Assembly (NCBI RefSeq): GCF_024345975.1
Contig: NZ_JAGQCD010000006.1
Location: forward strand, 62,001 to 126,000
From: Cyanobium sp. Cruz-8D1
Lineage (GTDB): Bacteria; Cyanobacteriota; Cyanobacteriia; PCC-6307; Cyanobiaceae
Direction: 5' to 3'
Length of the DNA: 64,000 bases
In this document: positions 2,886-62,036 of the stretch, piece by piece
Layout: each line of letters opens with the position of its first letter
How positions within the stretch are numbered: position 1 is the first letter of the stretch
Translations under genes and position numbers: made by a program
Notes under the pieces: generated by a model
What the model was told of the DNA's origin: nothing
Databases searched by the model: none
What the model saw: only the letters and a program-made list of their open reading frames with translations

Positions 2886-3245
2886 ATGTTCAACCCGGAG
2901 TTCCTGACCGCCGATAACGAGGCGATCAGCGACAATTCGCTGATTCAGTACCTGCAGGAACAGTCCCCAGACGTGCTCCAGAGGGTGGCCCGCTCGGCCA
3001 CCGGCGACATCCAGGACATCATTCGTCACAACGTCCAGGGCTTGCTGGGCATGCTCCCCGGCGAGCAGTTCGAGGTGAAGATCCAAGCCAGCCGCGACAA
3101 CCTCGCCGGCCTGCTGGCCTCGGCGATGATGACCGGCTACTTCCTGCGCCAGATGGAGCAGCGCATGGAGCTGGAATCGGCCATGCTCGGCAGCGGTGGT
3201 TTCGAGACCGGCCTCGACGACGATCCCGGCGAACTGGAGCTCTAG
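2886..3245 (+). CDS. DUF760 family protein
   Basis: Small (119 residues), soluble, acidic helical protein of the DUF760 family found in cyanobacteria and plastids; its function is not established. Family-like features are the opening LIQYLQEQSPDVLQRVARS (~22-40), the segment VQGLLGMLPGEQFEV, and the helix SAMMTGYFLRQMEQRMELE. A strong ribosome site, GGAGGGGAA, sits directly before the ATG. The stop codon TAG at 3243-3245 coincides with the edge of a decayed IS630 element; because that family inserts at TA, the reading frame and stop survived the insertion. Confidence 0.85.
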   Translation: MFNPEFLTADNEAISDNSLIQYLQEQSPDVLQRVARSATGDIQDIIRHNVQGLLGMLPGEQFEVKIQASRDNLAGLLASAMMTGYFLRQMEQRMELESAMLGSGGFETGLDDDPGELEL

Positions 3246-4080
3246 TGTCCCGTCCCGGTGATTTGCGAGCAAAGTCGCTGGAGCTTCTCAAGGATTGAGT
3301 CCTCTGTCGCGCTCCACTTGTGAAGGGTGCTTTGGTTTTGTTGTAGGCGGCCACGTATCGCTCGATTTTGGCGATCAGCTCTTAACGCTGCGCGTAAGTT
3401 GTGGGTGATCACCCCAAACCAGCGCTACACCTGACTAAGGCATCCGGATAACGTCAGCCTTAGCCAGGAGGCGTTGGTGGGTGAATCGTGGACGCGGAAG
3501 CGGCGCCGATGCCCCAGCCAGGCGCGGACCTACCGCTTCGCGGGTGACCGAAGGCTAGAGAGCGCCTGTGATTGCAGTAGTTGTTCACGATCCGATGGAC
3601 GTCCAGGCCCTCGGGAGCGGACCTTTCGATCAGGCGCAGGAACCCCAGGAATTCCTGAATTCCTGGTGCCCATGGCGCCGTCTGCACTGGATCAGCACCT
3701 CGCCGATGGCCACATCCAGAGCAGCGAACAGGTGGTGGGTGCCGTGACGCCAGGCCCATGGGCAGTAGCGGCTGGGGGCGGTCCAGCGCCTGGATCTGCG
3801 TCTTCTCACGGATCGGTGGAGCGCTTGTAGCCGTCAGGCTTCCGCGCAGCGGTGATGCTTCTGGTGATGGGGCTGGACTGAGAAGGTCTGCAGCCAGAGT
3901 TCAACACGACCTGGGCGCGCTGCACGATCAAATGCGGCAGTGAACGGGAACTCGCGAGAGCCTGCATCTGTTGAACCTCGTCCTCAGTGAGGACGAGCTG
4001 AGGCATCGGACGACCAAGCGCCACAGGCCACCTCGGGGGACAAGGACTATCGTGTTGCTATTTCCGGGACAACACACTAG
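3243..4080 (-). mobile_element. Decayed IS630-family element, copy 1 (deletion derivative with both ends)
   Basis: The minus strand carries pieces of an IS630-type DDE transposase in shifted frames: an N-terminal piece (LVLTEDEVQQMQAL, SLPHLIVQRAQVVL, ~3900-4000), a mid piece GIQEFLGFLRLIERSAP with DVHRIVNNY (~3590-3660), and the C-terminal end SILEKLQRLCSQITGTGH, whose stop is the CTA at 3242-3244. The helix-turn-helix part and part of the catalytic core are missing, and stops interrupt the rest. Ends are recognisable: plus strand from 3242 reads CTAGTGTCCCGTCCCGG and the minus strand from 4080 reads CTAGTGTGTTGTCCCGG, imperfect inverted repeats flanked by TA, the target IS630 elements duplicate. 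At ~830 bp it is shorter than a complete member (~1.1 kb). Confidence 0.85.
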
Positions 4081-4161
4081 ACGTCCTCCTGCAGTGGAGA
4101 GCGGCCTAAATACCTCACCAGCTCTCATGGGAACTGGACCACTGATGGGGGTCACGTCATG

Positions 4162-4920
4162 TCAGGGCTGGATCGCAGCTGCGGCATTATTGCTTCGTGC
4201 CTGGTCCCATTTGATCGAGGTCATACCGGCTGGTGTCCTGCGTGACTGGACTCTCTTGCGAAGCTTGCGGCTGTAGCCGTAGGCGGCACCTAGCCCTAAG
4301 AGGGGTAGAGGGCCAGGTGTCGGAACGGGAATTGTCTCTACCGAAATAATCTCTGGCCTTCTTGCTCGTTCTCTGCATTCAAGTGCATTCGGATTTTTGA
4401 TACAAGGGATACCACGATAATCGTATTCAAGAGGACTGAATCGAGATCTCGATGGCAATTCATACTCTCCGAAGTAGAATTGATAGAGCCTGTCTCCCAC
4501 GGCGTAGGCAAAGCCGTTGCCTGAAAACTGGTACTCTGTTGGCGGACTGCCAACCGAAGGATTAAAGAGATTGTCGGTGGGAAGCCCAGATAGAAGCGGA
4601 TCAAAAAAGCCTGCGGGCAATAACGCAGTTACTTCATTTCCTTCGTCTGTCCCAGTGATGCTCCTCATTAAATATCCAGAAAACCCATTCACGGTTGACC
4701 TCGTACTTTCAGTCGTAATACGAAGTCTGCCGCCTTCGATGCGGACGGGATCGCCATCAATTAGGAGCTTGTCAAAGTTAAACAGAAATGTCTGTAGTGC
4801 TTCAGCCTTTGCCGGGAAAAGGAAAGTAGAGACAATACAACTCAACACGACTGCCACCAAAGGGTTTACGTCGGATCGTGTGACACGCCTGTTCAGCATA
4901 CCTTTTAGAGAGTGCTTCAC
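4162..4920 (-). CDS. Secreted protein with PEP-CTERM-like C-terminal sorting tail
   Basis: Protein of 252 residues with an N-terminal signal peptide (hydrophobic ~18-34, AKAEA cleavage region) and a body I do not recognise. Near the C-terminus is a three-part signal: PGPLPLLG, a short hydrophobic stretch LGAAYGY, and the basic cluster SRKLRKR. This resembles the PEP-CTERM signals processed by exosortases, with PLP in place of PEP. The same tail occurs in the protein at 6876-7658. Unusually, ~29 residues follow the basic cluster. Start GTG 4920; ATG at 4899 is an alternative. The gene is visibly richer in A/T than its neighbours, suggesting acquired DNA. Confidence 0.75.
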   Translation of the reverse strand: MKHSLKGMLNRRVTRSDVNPLVAVVLSCIVSTFLFPAKAEALQTFLFNFDKLLIDGDPVRIEGGRLRITTESTRSTVNGFSGYLMRSITGTDEGNEVTALLPAGFFDPLLSGLPTDNLFNPSVGSPPTEYQFSGNGFAYAVGDRLYQFYFGEYELPSRSRFSPLEYDYRGIPCIKNPNALECRERARRPEIISVETIPVPTPGPLPLLGLGAAYGYSRKLRKRVQSRRTPAGMTSIKWDQARSNNAAAAIQP

Positions 4921-5289
4921 TTGGGAATCAACGCAAGTGAGCGGAAGAATGAAGCGCCAGGCACATGAGAACCAGGGCTGACATGAACCTATTCATAAAT
5001 CACAATTATAGAAAACTAGCAGGTGCAAGGTTGAAGGAGATCGCGGCGCTGCACATTGGATGCAGATGTGTTCTGTATTTGAGCGTTACCATCCTGTGTT
5101 GAGAAAGCAGGCAGCATTAATTCAAGGAGTCGAATCCTGCGATGGCCATTATTCAGCAAATAGTCAGTAACGATGCCCTCGTGTTTCCCGTGAACGATCG
5201 GATCAGCACTTCAGAGCCTCTCCAGGCCGTGTGTGAGGTGGATACCGCCTTTTGAGCGGGCGTCCCAGCGGATGGAGCAAGACCTGCGC
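4921..5289. other. Intergenic, A/T-rich, no gene recognised
   Basis: This 369-base stretch lies between the start of the first sorting-tail protein and the hipA remnant. It contains the A/T-rich segment 4985-5030, which may hold the promoter of the minus-strand gene, and a 37-codon plus-strand frame at 5142-5255 that I do not consider supported. I see no RNA gene or terminator. Confidence 0.5.
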
Positions 5290-5805
5290 ACAGGCTGAGG
5301 ACCCCTGCGACGCTCCCTTTCGACCTCCTGGGCTTCAGCTGGCCTGCCCTGCAGGCGCTCGGCGGAGGCCTGCAGCCCGCCCAGGATGGAGGAGGCCAGC
5401 TGTTCCGGGAAGCCGCTGGACAGCTCCGCCTGCCCAGCCAGGCCATCGCCACCACTGGTTCTGATGCCTGAGCAGGGCGGTTTTCTCCTGGGCTCCGGCG
5501 ATCGAGAGGCGCAGTTCCTTGTCGGCTGCGGCCGTGCTGCCTGGAAGCGGTTCAGCCACCACACCCTGCAGCAGGTGGCCGATGGCTCCCCCCGCAGCGC
5601 CGGGTGGCCCAGGCCAACCGGCAGCGAGAGCGAGAGGGGCTTGAACTGCGGCACGTCAGCCAGACAGGGTCGTAGTGGAACTCCTGCGGGCCCCGCCCCT
5701 GCCCGCGCCACTCCCCCACCCGGCCCGTTCGCTGCCGCCAACAAGAAAGAGGCGCAGCAGGCCTGCCGCGTTGAGCAGGCCAAGGGTGAGACCATCGGTG
5801 GTCAT
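5290..5805 (-). pseudogene. Remnant of a HipA-family kinase toxin
   Basis: HipA proteins are serine/threonine kinases of type II toxin-antitoxin systems. Landmarks occur in family order on the minus strand but in different frames: a start-like MTTDGLTLGLLN (~5805), QEFHYDPVWLT, then PLSLSLPVG, then the diagnostic box LRLSIAGAQEKTALLRHQN (~5480-5530), and finally a C-terminal-like piece SGFPEQLASSILGGLQASAE. About 200 residues of the central kinase domain, including the catalytic residues, are absent between the AGAQEKTALL box and the C-terminal piece. Frameshifts plus this internal deletion make it non-functional. No HipB-type antitoxin is visible upstream. The family assignment rests on the ordered motifs. 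Confidence 0.75.
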
Positions 5806-6875
5806 CCGAATGCGTTGCCCCTCAAAACGCATAGGGCACCAGAGCGGACGTGCTGCTCATGGCTGGGAAGGCGAGGGGATAGGGGCGCCGGACCCGCAAG
5901 GACCAGCAGGATCGTGCTCAGCTGCAGGGTCAATTTCAGCCACAGCAGCCACAGCGGGCGGCTGACCCGGACGGTGGTGGTGATCGGCCGGCGCGTGCGG
6001 CAGAAGGCCGACCGTGGGGGATTCCGTCCCTTCTCGCTGAGGCGAATCTTGGCGTGGTGGGCCATGAGAAGCGAACCTCCTCGCCGCCGTACGCATCGCC
6101 TTTCGGATTGCCCTCCTGGCCGTATTTCTGCGCCCAACGGGTCTCAAGGGTGAGCACAGCTCCGACATTGAGCTTGTCGCGGCGGTGCTGGAGGCGGGCT
6201 TCAATCCAGTCGCCGAAAGCTTTGGCCTTGAGGATCACCCCCACCCGATCACCGGGGGCCGGCGCACCACCGTGATCAGCGAGGCGTGCCGCCATCGTGG
6301 TGCCAGGCATGGCGATGGCGTGGATCACCAGTTCTTGCTTGACCCTGGGGCGCCCCTGGTGGTGTTTGCCGTGGCAATCGGCTCCATTTCGGCGCTGTTG
6401 AGGTTGCGGCGCAGGTGGTCCCGCGGTGCGCACGATCGCCTGATGGGCCTCTCCCGGTTCTGAGGACAAGTCGATAGGAGTCACGCCTTGATCACCAACT
6501 GTCCCTCGATGACCAACCCCATCAGAAACAGGTGCCGGTTCACAGCGCAGCAGAAAGCTGAGGTCGTGGAGCTCTGCCTGCAGGAGGGTCTCACTCCAGT
6601 CAAATCCTGATCGGTGTCCACGAAATTGGGCGAACCCCACCCGCTAGCCAGATTCACCTTGACTTTGGAATACCAATGGCTGTCTAAAAATAAAGGAATC
6701 TTCTGGAATCACGGACAAGCGGCCAAACAAGCAAACGATTTGGCTGCGGCAGAACTGCATCATATTGACGGTAAGCGGCCAGGGGAAAGCATCCCTTCAT
6801 GGCATAAAATTTGTGTGCCCAGTAAGCCTAGGCTTCCACTGTTTGATTCCATCAAAGTCATTTAGGTGAACTTCA
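5806..6875. other. About 1.07 kb without a recognisable gene
   Basis: Open frames exist on both strands here (a 234-codon minus frame at 5936-6640 is the longest), but none shows a start with a ribosome site, a signal peptide, a family motif or a sensible composition. The position between a hipA remnant and an acquired gene suggests eroded foreign DNA. The last ~260 bases (6614-6875) are A/T-rich and include an 83-codon plus frame that more likely forms the leader of the next gene than a protein. Confidence 0.45.
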
Positions 6876-7658
6876 ATGCCCTCTAAACCAGCTTTACCCA
6901 TCCATGGCTTCCGACGCAACAAGGCGGCTTACTCAGGCGTTGTTGGCGCCGTGCTGGTCGCCAGTGCTTTGGGCTTCGGTGCTACTTCGGCGAACGCAGC
7001 AGTTGTCAGCCTTGATTTTGAGGACATCGCTCCATATCCTAATGGCAATAATGTTTTCATTCAAGAGTTTTACAATGGCGGCACTAGCAGTATCGGCACC
7101 TCTGGCCCCGACTTGGGGATTTCGTTTGGGGATAATGCCCTGTTGATCTGTCTCAATGAAGTGGGGACGAGCTGTTCCAATACTTCGCGAGGCGGCCTTG
7201 GCGATCCTGCATCCCAGAAAGGGGCGTTGTTCTTCCTCTCCGGAAGCGAAACCTTCCTGAATTACGCTTCAGGTTTTGATACCGGATTCTCATTCAATTA
7301 CGTCTCATTCAGCTTTAATGGCAGCGTTGGAGTTTACGATGGATTGAACGGGACCGGCAACTTACTGGCGTCGCTCAACTTGACCCCCAATGCCGGGTCT
7401 TGCCCTGGATTCGATGCTGATTTCTGTCCGTTCTCGCCATCCGGCGTGCTGTTCCCGGGCACAGCAAAGTCGATCGGTTTTGGTGGCGTCGCCAACCAGA
7501 TCGTGTTTGATGACATCACCTTCGGTTCAGACATCCCAGGACCAGGACCAGAAACTGACACTGTTCCTGGCCCCCTGCCACTTCTTGGTTTAGGCGTTGC
7601 CTTCGGCTACAGTCGTAAGCTACGGAAGCGTATCAGCGGTAGCCACAAACTCGGCTGA
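6876..7658 (+). CDS. Secreted protein with PEP-CTERM-like C-terminal sorting tail
   Basis: Protein of 260 residues with a signal peptide (hydrophobic ~20-40, ending TSANA before AVVSLDFED) and an Asn/Gly/Ser-rich, probably beta-rich body. VVSLDFEDI near the mature N-terminus and FNYVSFSFNGSVGVYDG resemble surface beta-sandwich proteins of PEP-CTERM type. The tail is VPGPLPLLGLGVAFGY then SRKLRKR, seven residues before the stop: motif, hydrophobic stretch, basic end. It matches the tail of the protein at 4162-4920 almost exactly although the bodies differ. A strong terminator follows. Inferred fate: export, then C-terminal processing by a cyanobacterial exosortase encoded elsewhere and display on or release from the cell surface. 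Confidence 0.8.
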   Translation: MPSKPALPIHGFRRNKAAYSGVVGAVLVASALGFGATSANAAVVSLDFEDIAPYPNGNNVFIQEFYNGGTSSIGTSGPDLGISFGDNALLICLNEVGTSCSNTSRGGLGDPASQKGALFFLSGSETFLNYASGFDTGFSFNYVSFSFNGSVGVYDGLNGTGNLLASLNLTPNAGSCPGFDADFCPFSPSGVLFPGTAKSIGFGGVANQIVFDDITFGSDIPGPGPETDTVPGPLPLLGLGVAFGYSRKLRKRISGSHKLG

Positions 7659-7706
7659 TTGCCCCCAGTAACACTGAACAACTCCCTAGGATTAGCTCGC
7701 ATGGAT

Positions 7707-7744
7707 GTCCCCGTTTTGGCCCTGTCAAAACGGGGACTTTTTTT
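7707..7744 (+). terminator. Rho-independent terminator after the 6876 gene
   Basis: A perfect 11-bp stem, GTCCCCGTTTT paired with AAAACGGGGAC, with a nine-base loop is followed by seven T. It lies 49 bases downstream of the stop codon of the sorting-tail protein and ends its transcript. Confidence 0.93.
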
Positions 7745-8247
7745 GAAATACTGTCGCTCCAGCAGCACGCTGCCTTCTCTTTTGTCAGCCTCCGCATTCC
7801 CATAAAAGCATCACTATTGTTCGCTCTGCCTTACCTCCCTCACGGCTAAGTCCTGGCCACTCGAACAACGGCAGCACGAGCGGCTTGGCGCTACCCTAAG
7901 CGGCGATGGAGATCCTCAACGACCCAGGCGACACTCAATTTCGAGCGACTGAGTCATGTCACTAATCCAATAATGTTGTGTGACATTCAACCGCGCTTCG
8001 TGTATCAAAAGCCATCCAGCAAAGGCCGAAGTTTTTCCAGGGACCGCCGCCCGGCATGACCATTCTCTTGGCGGAAAACGCCGCAATTGTCGTGCTTCGA
8101 GCGGCTGGCTGTGAACCTTTCGGCACCAGCACTGCCGGCTGCTCAGAGCCTCCTGAGACCCCACCACCCGCTGATCGGGCGCCTTTAGTCGCAGCCGGAT
8201 CAGCGACGGAACTTCCGTTCCTCACTTCCCTTCCCTATCTGTCCGCC
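7745..8247. other. Intergenic, nothing recognised
   Basis: About 500 bases between the terminator and the HpsJ-like gene. The plus-strand frame of the next gene stays open back to 8056, but that extension is Pro/Ala-rich and not like the protein proper. I see no RNA gene, repeat or clear promoter. Confidence 0.45.
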
Positions 8248-9051
8248 ATGGCCCGTTCACCTGCGCACCACGAGCAAAGTGTCGAGGCGACTGCGCATGC
8301 TCCCCGGCTCATGGCTGCCCAGCTGGGGATCCTCGCCGTCTGCCTTCTCAGCCTCTACGTGGTGGTGGTGCTCGCCGCCATCCTGCCGACGGCCCTCCTG
8401 GATCCGGCCTGGCAGTTGCGGTTCACGAACGCGCTGATTGTCAACGGCTTCCTCGCTCTTCTTGGCCTGGCCCTTGTCCACTTGGCCGCCTATCTCGATC
8501 CCGCCAATCCCCATCTGGGCCGTCGACGCAATGACTTCGCCACCTGGGCTCTGATCCCCGTGCTGGGGTTTCTCCTCCTCATCCCCCTCCAGGGCTACGC
8601 CGTGTGGCGCGGCATCGGCACCGCGAAAATGGAGCAGAACAATCAGCTCAGGCAGGTGACCGGCAGGATCTCGGCCCTGCGGGAGGCGATCAACACATCC
8701 ACCAACACCCAGGACCTGCAACGCCGCTGGCAGGCACTCAAGGCTCCCCCCCTGAGGCCCACCGACCTGACCCAGCCCTGGCCGCAATTGCGCAACGGCC
8801 TGCTGGAGAGCTTGGAGCAGATGGAAATCCGAGCCGGCGATCGCCTCAAGGGGATCCAGCCCTCCGTTCTGTGGCAAATTACCCAGGGCAGCATCGGTAC
8901 GGTTCTCTCAGCTTTCGTGCTGGTGGTGGGCTTCGCTTCTTTTACTAAGCGCAAAGGCAGGGAACGGACGCTCCTTCAGCAGTGGCAGGATAAGTTCCAA
9001 AGCCGCAGAGGATCAGCGGGCTTCAGGTTGTCGCAACGAACAACCAGGTGA
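8248..9051 (+). CDS. HpsJ-like four-helix membrane protein
   Basis: Protein of 267 residues with three membrane helices near the N-terminus (~residues 26-46, 57-82, 100-122), a soluble helical segment with regularly spaced Leu/Gln/Arg (~125-215), and a fourth helix (~221-238). The sequence LLSLYVVVVLAAILPTALLD followed by DPAWQLRFTNALI resembles HpsJ-family proteins, which accompany cyanoexosortase systems in cyanobacteria. That fits two sorting-tail proteins in the same island. I chose ATG 8248 because the upstream frame lacks family character. Only HpsJ-like is claimed, from layout and local sequence; a different small membrane family is possible. Confidence 0.55.
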   Translation: MARSPAHHEQSVEATAHAPRLMAAQLGILAVCLLSLYVVVVLAAILPTALLDPAWQLRFTNALIVNGFLALLGLALVHLAAYLDPANPHLGRRRNDFATWALIPVLGFLLLIPLQGYAVWRGIGTAKMEQNNQLRQVTGRISALREAINTSTNTQDLQRRWQALKAPPLRPTDLTQPWPQLRNGLLESLEQMEIRAGDRLKGIQPSVLWQITQGSIGTVLSAFVLVVGFASFTKRKGRERTLLQQWQDKFQSRRGSAGFRLSQRTTR

Positions 9052-9177
9052 CATCGGGAGTAGCCTGAAGAGGTTATGCCGAGCCTCAGTGCGGGGAGAG
9101 CCTCTTGGCACCTCAGCCACCATCCGACTGGAAGTGATCGACCTATCCAGGCATTCTCGATTTTCAGCCCAGGACGA

Positions 9178-9683
9178 CTGGGTCTTCCCCGAGATCTGTG
9201 AGCAAAGTCGCTGCAGCGCTTGCACTGAGTGATCACCTCGCTGGTGGCCACGTTCAGCGCCGCCAACAGAGTTGTGTTGCCGTGGCGGATGTAGTCGTGG
9301 GTCACGCCCTCGACGTACCCAAGACCCATGGGTAACAGCGCTGAGTCCTGTCCAGAGGTTGGATCTGCGTCTTCTCACGGAGCTGTGGAGAGCTTGTAGC
9401 CGTCAGGCTTCCGCGCAACGGTGATGCTTCTGGCGGCGGGGCTGCACCGAGAAGGTCTGCAGCCAGCGATGGACTCTGTCGTCCCCGTAGATGCGTGGCC
9501 GGCCGGGGCGCAGCTCGTCGTGCAGACCTTCCAGCCCCAGTTCCCGGTACCGCTTGCCGACGGTCATGCCCGTCAGGTCCATCCGATCGGCGATGGCGGT
9601 GTTGGTTTCGCCGGCACCGCAGGCAAGAACGATCGGGGCACCCGGAGACACGCCTGTTTCTCGTCGCTATTTCCGGAACGGCT
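9178..9683 (-). mobile_element. Decayed IS630-family element, copy 2
   Basis: The minus strand encodes fragments of the same transposase type as copy 1: the helix-turn-helix part AGETNTAIADRMDLTGMTVG with YRELGLEGLHDELRPGRPR (~9500-9640), then HRWLQTFSVQPRRQKH, then GVTHDYIRHGNTTLLAALNV with EVITQCKR (~9230-9310), joined directly to the extreme C-terminal LQRLCSQISG. Most of the catalytic core is deleted. 9361-9464 closely matches 3792-3895 of copy 1. The end near 9666-9687 (GCTATTTCCGGAACGGCTCACC) corresponds to the IS end at 4057-4080 and overlaps the stop codon of the DUF4336 gene. It lies in the same orientation as copy 1. Confidence 0.85.
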
Positions 9684-10894
9684 CACCAGGGCTGAGGCTT
9701 TTGGCTCTGTTGTGTCTCCCCCGGCACCAGCCCCAGGCGCACCAGCGTGTTGTCGATTCCGGCCAGGGTTTGCCAGGAGCCTTGATCAGGCGCCCACTCC
9801 CCCGTCGCGATCCGGTCCGCCAGGGCGGTGAGCTCCGCTGCTGAGCTAGCCACGGGGGCCTCGTGGTGGGCCGGCACCACCCAGCGCAGATCCTTCAGGC
9901 CGGCCAGCACGCGGATCCAGGCCACCAGGGCAGGCCTCTGGCGGGGGAACACCAGCCGCTCCAACACCGCCGCCACCTGCAAACGGCTGCGGCCGCCCGG
10001 CGTCAGGGCCTCGAAATCCTCCTGCCAGCCGGGCAGCCAGCGGAACGGGTAGAAGCCGAAATGGGCCCTGGCCCCGCGGCATCCCGGTGCCAGGCAATGG
10101 CGCAGCACCTCGCCCAGGGGTGGCACCTCCAGGGGCCTGGGCCGCAGGTAGGTGGCGAACAGCACCATCCGCCACCAGCCCTTGCGGCGCCGCTGGGGAT
10201 CATCCAGCAGCGGTTCATCGCCCCGCTCGCGGGCATGGAACAGCAGCGGCGTGGGATCGAGATCGAACACCGCCGGCGGCTCCGGCGGAATCGCCACCAG
10301 GGCATCGGTCAGCAGCAGGCTGCCGCTGGCCCGATCGAAGCAGGCGATCTCCAGGAAGGTGCCCAGCCCCAGGTCGAGAGGGCCCAGGGGCAACCAGTCG
10401 AGCTGGTCGCCGTGGGGTACCCCATCGCTGAGCAGCACCCGGGTGCGGGAGGCGGGGAACCCCAGCCAGGCGGACGGCAGCGGCAGCGGGAAACTCCACT
10501 GCTTCGGCGACACCCATACCTGGGCCGCGGGGAAGGCCCGGGCCATGGCCGGCACCGGCAGCTTGTGCTCCAACCCCGATGCGGTGGGCAGCACGATGGT
10601 GCACACCCGGCCGTGGCGCTCCTCCAGTTCCCGCAGGCGGGAGAGCACCTCGGCGGTGGGCGCCACCGGGGCATAGAGCAGCAGTCCCTCCCGCACCCGC
10701 AGCACCAGCATCCGGATCGGCACCGCTACGTACCAGACCCCCTGCACCTGCTCGAAGCTCCACAGCCTGCCGGCGATCAGCTCCCGCACCAGGGTGCGGC
10801 GGCGGCCGTAGGGGTAGAGGGGCAGCAACGGCCACCAGGGCCAGCGTTGGTCGGCGGGCGAGGGCGTCGCAGCGACGTTGGCTGTCTCGCTCAC
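9683..10894 (-). CDS. DUF4336 domain-containing protein
   Basis: Protein of 403 residues of the DUF4336 family, thought to have a metallo-hydrolase-like fold; no reaction is established. Typical segments are WWPLLPLYPYGRRRTLVREL near the N-terminus, CTIVLPTASGLEHKLPVPAM, and WSFPLPLPSAWLGFP. The frame extends upstream, but the GTG at 10894 overlaps the mntB stop (GTGA), the natural start for a fourth operon gene. Its position as last gene of a manganese-importer operon suggests a metal-related role, by inference only. The stop at 9683-9685 lies inside the terminal sequence of IS630 copy 2, so the C-terminus may have been altered by that insertion. Confidence 0.82.
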   Translation of the reverse strand: MSETANVAATPSPADQRWPWWPLLPLYPYGRRRTLVRELIAGRLWSFEQVQGVWYVAVPIRMLVLRVREGLLLYAPVAPTAEVLSRLRELEERHGRVCTIVLPTASGLEHKLPVPAMARAFPAAQVWVSPKQWSFPLPLPSAWLGFPASRTRVLLSDGVPHGDQLDWLPLGPLDLGLGTFLEIACFDRASGSLLLTDALVAIPPEPPAVFDLDPTPLLFHARERGDEPLLDDPQRRRKGWWRMVLFATYLRPRPLEVPPLGEVLRHCLAPGCRGARAHFGFYPFRWLPGWQEDFEALTPGGRSRLQVAAVLERLVFPRQRPALVAWIRVLAGLKDLRWVVPAHHEAPVASSAAELTALADRIATGEWAPDQGSWQTLAGIDNTLVRLGLVPGETQQSQKPQPW

Positions 10895-61963: not shown

Positions 61964-62036
61964 GCAGGGCTCACCCCTCAGCCGGAGGGGCCTGGAGGCT
62001 TGTGCCTAGGGTTGTGCTGATCGGGCATCGCCGACC

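Follow-up and report, generated by a model that had tools for sequence, protein, structure and literature searches.

A 6.4-kb island bracketed by two decayed IS630 copies at a CTAG site between the DUF760 and DUF4336 genes of Cyanobium sp. Cruz-8D1: a probable composite transposon

In the genome of Cyanobium sp. Cruz-8D1, a gene for a DUF760 protein and a convergent gene for a DUF4336 protein are separated by a block of genes and gene debris with a remnant of an IS630-family insertion sequence (IS) at either border, which raises the question of how this block arrived there. The DNA analyzed, called the window in the following, is a stretch of 64,000 bp (positions 62001–126000 of contig C65, NZ_JAGQCD010000006.1, from genome G000, an assembly of 3.97 Mb in 108 contigs), and it was compared with a set of 42 same-genus genomes, consisting of G000 and 41 others (G, C, and L codes denote genomes, contigs, and extracted loci). 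The simplest account, which we consider probable, explains the block as an IS630-type composite transposon that has decayed. The borders and their neighbours are defined by the following features, given in window coordinates:

2886–3245, plus strand: DUF760 gene, left neighbour (Pfam PF05542, E = 1.9e-30), whose TAG stop at 3243–3245 is the insertion site.
3242–3245, no strand: target CTAG, whose TA (3243–3244) is the left copy of the target duplication, seen at the border as CTA followed by GTGTCCCGTCCC.
3245–4077, minus strand: IS630-family copy A, decayed, both termini kept, transposase gene with deletions (747 bases aligned at 78% with the intact IS of G020).
4080–4161, plus strand: terminal 3' part of an IS3-family transposase gene, which copy A interrupts at a CTAG (90% over 79 bp to multicopy IS ends of G009 and G028).
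9178–9686, minus strand: IS630-family copy B, decayed, both termini kept, same orientation as A (488 bases aligned at 79% with the intact IS of G020).
9683–10894, minus strand: DUF4336 gene, right neighbour (Pfam PF14234, E = 1.3e-112).
9687–9688, no strand: CA, a decayed TA and the right-hand copy of the target duplication, identified by alignment with 14 relatives and followed by GGGCTGAGG of the empty site.

The block is an insertion relative to same-genus relatives. In all 20 extracted same-genus loci (L039–L058), the DUF760 and DUF4336 genes were convergent direct neighbours without an island, at a distance of at most about 430 bp. A wider, overlapping sample, whose rows were read by eye, locus by locus, gave the same adjacency in 24 of 29 relatives, and the five remaining, more distant ones had no DUF4336 gene within 1.5 kb. 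When the joined flanks of the window were aligned with the junctions of 14 relatives, the sequence ran continuously across the junction (GAGCTCTAG directly followed by GGCTGAGGCTT), and no island sequence was present. The empty site of the relatives reads CTA and then GGGCTG, and the outer IS ends adjoin the two halves of this site, CTA and GGGCTGAGG; the left border reads CTA and then GTGTCCCGTCCC, the right border GGCTCAC, then CA, then GGGCTGAGG. The junction alignment and the border sequences thus define the island as the 6,442 bp from 3245 to 9686 and identify positions 9687–9688 as a decayed second TA. One of the genomes with an empty site, G013, codes for a DUF760 protein that is 100% identical to that of the window. 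The initial annotation had already read the block as an insertion, to be checked by comparing the flanking genes in relatives, and the 20 loci bear this out; it had placed an IS remnant at each border, which stands, and the borders at 3243 and 9683, which had to be refined to 3245 and 9686. It had named the same gene order without IS remnants in most relatives as the finding that would speak against an insertion; the gene order of the island was found in none of the relatives examined.

The island also differs in composition from its surroundings, with a guanine-plus-cytosine (GC) content of 0.59 inside against 0.69 outside and a CTAG density of 1.24 per kb inside against 0.28 per kb outside. 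CTAG is strongly under-represented in the window as a whole, which contains 25 sites compared to 188 expected from base composition; nine of these 25 sites lie in the 6.4-kb island or at its edge. To date the event, two divergences can be set side by side. At fourfold sites, the flanking genes show 14–16% divergence from the nearest relatives with an empty site, and copies A and B differ by about 15% over their best-aligned 135 bp and by 22–26% in some other blocks. This comparison indicates that the IS pair dates from about the time of the split from the nearest relatives or from before it, and that the insertion at its present site is younger than this split, unless all of the relatives lost the island. 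The age of the IS copies is what an ancestral island would lead one to expect; however, such a history requires that every sampled relative lost the island precisely, down to stop codons that overlap or nearly touch, and leaves the island with GC and CTAG contents foreign to its surroundings, so that we give it hardly any credence.

Both bordering elements were compared with an intact relative, for which three copies of G020 served as the reference: an IS of 1,149 bp flanked by CTAG, with a transposase frame of 371 codons on the minus strand. Searching the 42 genomes revealed nine near-identical copies of this intact IS in G020. Relative to it, A and B each carry large internal deletions. The two copies belong to the IS630 family by their DDE-type transposase, their insertion at TA with a 2-bp duplication, and their preference for CTAG, and the helix-turn-helix region of copy B matches model NF033545 (E = 4.8e-8, below the full-length cut-off). 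As the initial annotation had described, two decayed IS630 remnants in the same orientation are present, and the segment that they share is real and shows them to be of one IS type; its length of 100 bases was set too short, since the gapless shared segment comprises 127 bp at 87% identity (3771–3897 vs. 9340–9466), accompanied by shorter matching blocks at the outer ends (BLAST of A vs. B, E = 3.6e-41). In addition, A and B have in common a deletion of about 77 bp with the identical junction CTTCTC/ACGGA, which removes the coding region around the first catalytic Asp (intact frame: VLCVDEK); we take this Asp to be the first of the DDE triad. Among the copies aligned, A and B alone have the deletion, and its junction is spanned by no further match in the 42 genomes. 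This private deletion implies that a single, already defective copy gave rise to both A and B, and the independent arrival of A and B was rejected on these grounds. Because the common ancestor was already defective, any later transposition would have needed transposase in trans. With the first Asp region gone and further deletions in each, A and B are non-functional remnants of IS630 members. Other, diverged IS630 copies in G000, about 75% similar at their ends and some of them located at contig ends, are a possible source of transposase. Contigs C23, C43, C31, and C66 of G000 end in or near such diverged copies, so that the assembly was probably interrupted there by intact IS630 elements present in several copies in this genome.

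Two kinds of short sequence were observed inside IS630 copies. A motif of about 24 bp (AGCCGTCAGGCTTCCGCGCAGCGG, with the hairpin CCGC-GCA-GCGG) is present at 3830–3853 within A and at 9399–9422 within B. It was found within many IS630 transposase genes and in other places in 13 of the 42 genomes, with one to three copies in each and none for the reversed control, and looks like a small dispersed repeat. Further short hairpin-like insertions (CCGC-TTC-GCGG; GTGCC-GGA-GGCAC) break IS630 transposase genes at differing points, as at 3532–3559 of the window and in L135, L139, L151, and L113.

The two sides of copy A are informative on how the island was assembled. Its outer flank is the DUF760 stop, and its inner flank is the end of an IS3-family transposase gene (an assignment based on the translated C-terminus, not on a profile search) which is multicopy in G009 and G028. 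Because these flanks are unlike, they come from different places, and A is not a simple local insertion. Such flanks would be expected with a composite transposon as well as with recombination between IS copies, and they speak against stepwise accretion at the native site. In the latter scenario, an IS630 element would recreate CTAG upon insertion, a second one would land beside the first, and other elements would gather between them as in a neutral dumping ground. The CTAG sites left of A (3242) and at its inner end (4077–4080) do both remain, and the cargo combines pieces of several elements, as accretion would predict. Yet the IS3 gene fragment is cut exactly at the IS630 end at CTAG, which indicates that A sat in an IS3 element elsewhere, and A and B stem from one dead ancestor instead of being separate arrivals. 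We therefore regard accretion as improbable.

The island shows two hallmarks of a composite transposon, with related IS copies at both outer borders and an outer TA and decayed CA at a site whose empty form is known. According to this account, an IS630 element that was already defective would have been present in two copies, arranged as direct repeats on either side of a cargo segment whose PEP-CTERM-like and HpsJ-like genes had been acquired in a different lineage of the genus. Transposase acting in trans would then have excised the whole unit at the outer end of each IS and inserted it into the TA of the CTAG formed by the overlapping DUF760 and DUF4336 stop codons. The G next to the duplicated TA would have restored both TAG stops, so that the insertion cost little, and both IS copies would have decayed afterwards. 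Movement as one unit, the supply of transposase in trans, and the donor are what we infer; because the same unit was seen in no second genome, its movement as a whole was not directly seen.

Three points weigh against this account. The unit was not found at another site in the 41 other same-genus genomes; the IS pair may predate the insertion, its divergence being as large as that at fourfold sites; and identical borders would arise by recombination between IS copies. This last process is the main rival: a single IS630 element would have occupied the CTAG first, and a circle or other incoming DNA carrying the cargo and a second copy of the same defective IS would have integrated later by homologous recombination of one copy with the other, so that the cargo came to lie between directly repeated ISs. 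The direct orientation of A and B, their common ancestry by the private deletion, and the foreign inner flanks are all expected from such an event. However, the same defective copy would have been needed both at the site and on the donor DNA, with enough identity to recombine, whereas the copies now differ by 15–20% in their well-aligned parts, and there is no single-copy intermediate among the relatives. We consider recombination a possible origin, if a less likely one than composite transposition. The initial annotation had suggested a gain by IS-mediated events or by recombination between copies, and two observations support this: the outer IS ends fit the empty CTAG exactly, and the deletion is confined to A and B.

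The DUF760 and DUF4336 genes have stop codons that overlap by four bases in seven of the nearest relatives; in G012, G025, G009, and G003, the four shared bases are the palindrome CTAG, which reads TAG on both strands. Both IS630 ends start with a G adjoining the TA, and the DUF760 gene keeps its TAG stop. With this G following the duplicated TA at either IS end, TAG is rebuilt on both sides and neither gene is broken. The DUF4336 gene would also have kept its TAG before the TA decayed to CA; since that change, it has one extra codon (W) and a TGA stop (9685–9683) within the IS end, and its product ends in KPQPW* in the window compared to KPQP* in G012, G013, and G003.

The same target was found for other copies of the IS. 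For the intact IS of G020, eight exact copies were located, and every one of them is inserted at CTAG and flanked by a duplicated TA; C precedes TA at nearly all IS ends in a pattern search of all fetched loci, the pattern itself demanding TAG. Two of the eight copies sit in the TAG stop of a long open reading frame with Pfam support, one at L194 matching glycosyltransferase family 2 (E = 1.4e-9) and one at L193 with a weak match to PapA_C below the cut-off (E = 2.7e-5), and one IS630 copy of G000 stands after an open frame of 348 codons ending in TAG. Since the window contains so few CTAG sites, these may simply happen to fall in stop codons. As a tentative idea, overlapping CTAG stops of convergent genes may serve as safe, self-renewing landing pads for IS630 elements, with both stops rebuilt and CTAG recreated on both sides. 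If this is true, such junctions could collect IS630 copies and entire islands without harm to the convergent genes on either side, and could be preferred places for picocyanobacteria to gain accessory genes. The preference for CTAG can make an insertion into overlapping stop codons nearly harmless, which is testable across genomes.

The cargo between the IS copies is a mosaic of two PEP-CTERM-like genes, an HpsJ-like gene, and debris of hipA, of an integrative element, and of an IS3 element:

4162–4920, minus strand: PEP-CTERM-like (sorting-tail) gene a, 252 amino acids (tail PTPGPLPLLGLGAAYGYSRKLRKR; closest to G008:C9, 78% DNA identity).
5235–5722, minus strand: hipA remnant, deleted and frame-broken (71–86% to blocks of the intact G020 HipA, with a deletion of about 700 bp).
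5659–6449, minus strand: remnant of integrative-element accessory genes (blocks of 75–89% to G020:C1:409k and to own contigs C18 and C51).
6441–6640, minus strand: IS3-family remnant that has lost its centre but retains both ends (two parts of a multicopy IS3 of G023 match it, one at 83% over 150 bp, the other at 91% over 35 bp).
6876–7658, plus strand: PEP-CTERM-like (sorting-tail) gene b, 260 amino acids, intact (tail VPGPLPLLGLGVAFGYSRKLRKR).
8248–9051, plus strand: HpsJ-like protein, 267 amino acids, intact (NF050013 HpsJ_like_A, E = 2.7e-16).

The two sorting-tail proteins, the HpsJ-like protein, and the hipA remnant agree with the contents first annotated, and the roughly 1 kb then left unassigned is now accounted for by the integrative-element debris and the IS3-family remnant. 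The reference HipA of G020 (L167) is intact with 508 amino acids (Pfam HipA_C, E = 4.8e-51), and the intact G020:C1:409k locus adjoins a tyrosine integrase and a Bro-N gene. In gene a, the C-terminus extends past the usual end; close relatives of gene b are confined to G062, G008, and G063. Tails of the type GPLPLLGLG..GYSRKLRKR are visible and common across the genus, and no Pfam or NCBIfam model matched them above the cut-off. The ratios of nonsynonymous to synonymous substitution rates (dN/dS) against relatives were 0.18–0.25 for gene a, 0.11–0.14 for gene b, and 0.11–0.36 for the three cargo genes together, which indicates that these genes were under purifying selection for most of their history. 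Scoring 59.8 bits against a cut-off of 140, the HpsJ-like protein is related to the NF050013 family but, by this model, is not a member of it.

A resident pair of PEP-CTERM and HpsJ genes is located on contig C43 of the same genome. In the tree, the resident HpsJ groups with those of G006, G004, G002, and G036 (support 100/99), and the island copy lies outside, without a resolved order relative to G009 and G014; pairwise, it is nearest to G009 (71% amino acid identity vs. 66% to the resident copy). Tree and identities together indicate that the island copy came from another lineage of the genus, and a duplication within the own genome was rejected as its source. A plasmid origin was likewise rejected, as megablast against plasmids gave a 47-bp match inside the IS and nothing else. 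On G009:C38 (L156, 1–510), an IS630 end at CTAG cuts a PEP-CTERM gene just upstream of the HpsJ gene of the resident locus, and this HpsJ also lies outside the main clade. There is no exosortase within the island; one is encoded elsewhere in the genome (G000:C1:77123–77851, PF09721, E = 6.8e-26, above cut-off). The locus offers a clean case, with the empty site known, of picocyanobacteria gaining probable surface-protein genes via IS630 elements.

Compared to known systems, the cargo resembles the PEP-CTERM/exosortase system with an HpsJ-like partner (NF050013, NF038305) in that sorting-tail proteins stand beside an HpsJ-like gene, as on C43, with a genomic exosortase of PF09721; unlike that system, the island is devoid of an exosortase, and its HpsJ match and sorting domains stay below the model cut-offs. 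Our literature search found no paper joining PEP-CTERM, HpsJ, and exosortase. Regarding the borders, ISY100 (ISTcSa) of Synechocystis, a member of the IS630/Tc1/mariner family, inserts by cut-and-paste into TA with a 2-bp TA duplication (PMC2170065), and the copies described here are likewise of a cyanobacterial IS630-family element inserted at a duplicated TA; unlike ISY100, which was studied as a single intact element in vitro, they are deleted and have cargo between them. A further parallel is an IS630-associated composite transposon which, according to the title of Tenzen and Ohtsubo (1991) as cited in PMC2170065, inserts at the TA in 5'-CTAG-3'. The island shares with the unit of that title the IS630-family copies as ends, the TA duplication, and the CTAG target, and differs from it, as far as the title describes it, in that both ISs are dead, the cargo consists of PEP-CTERM and HpsJ genes plus debris, and the target is a pair of convergent overlapping stop codons. 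The insertion itself is of an ordinary kind among genome insertions, and it is well preserved.

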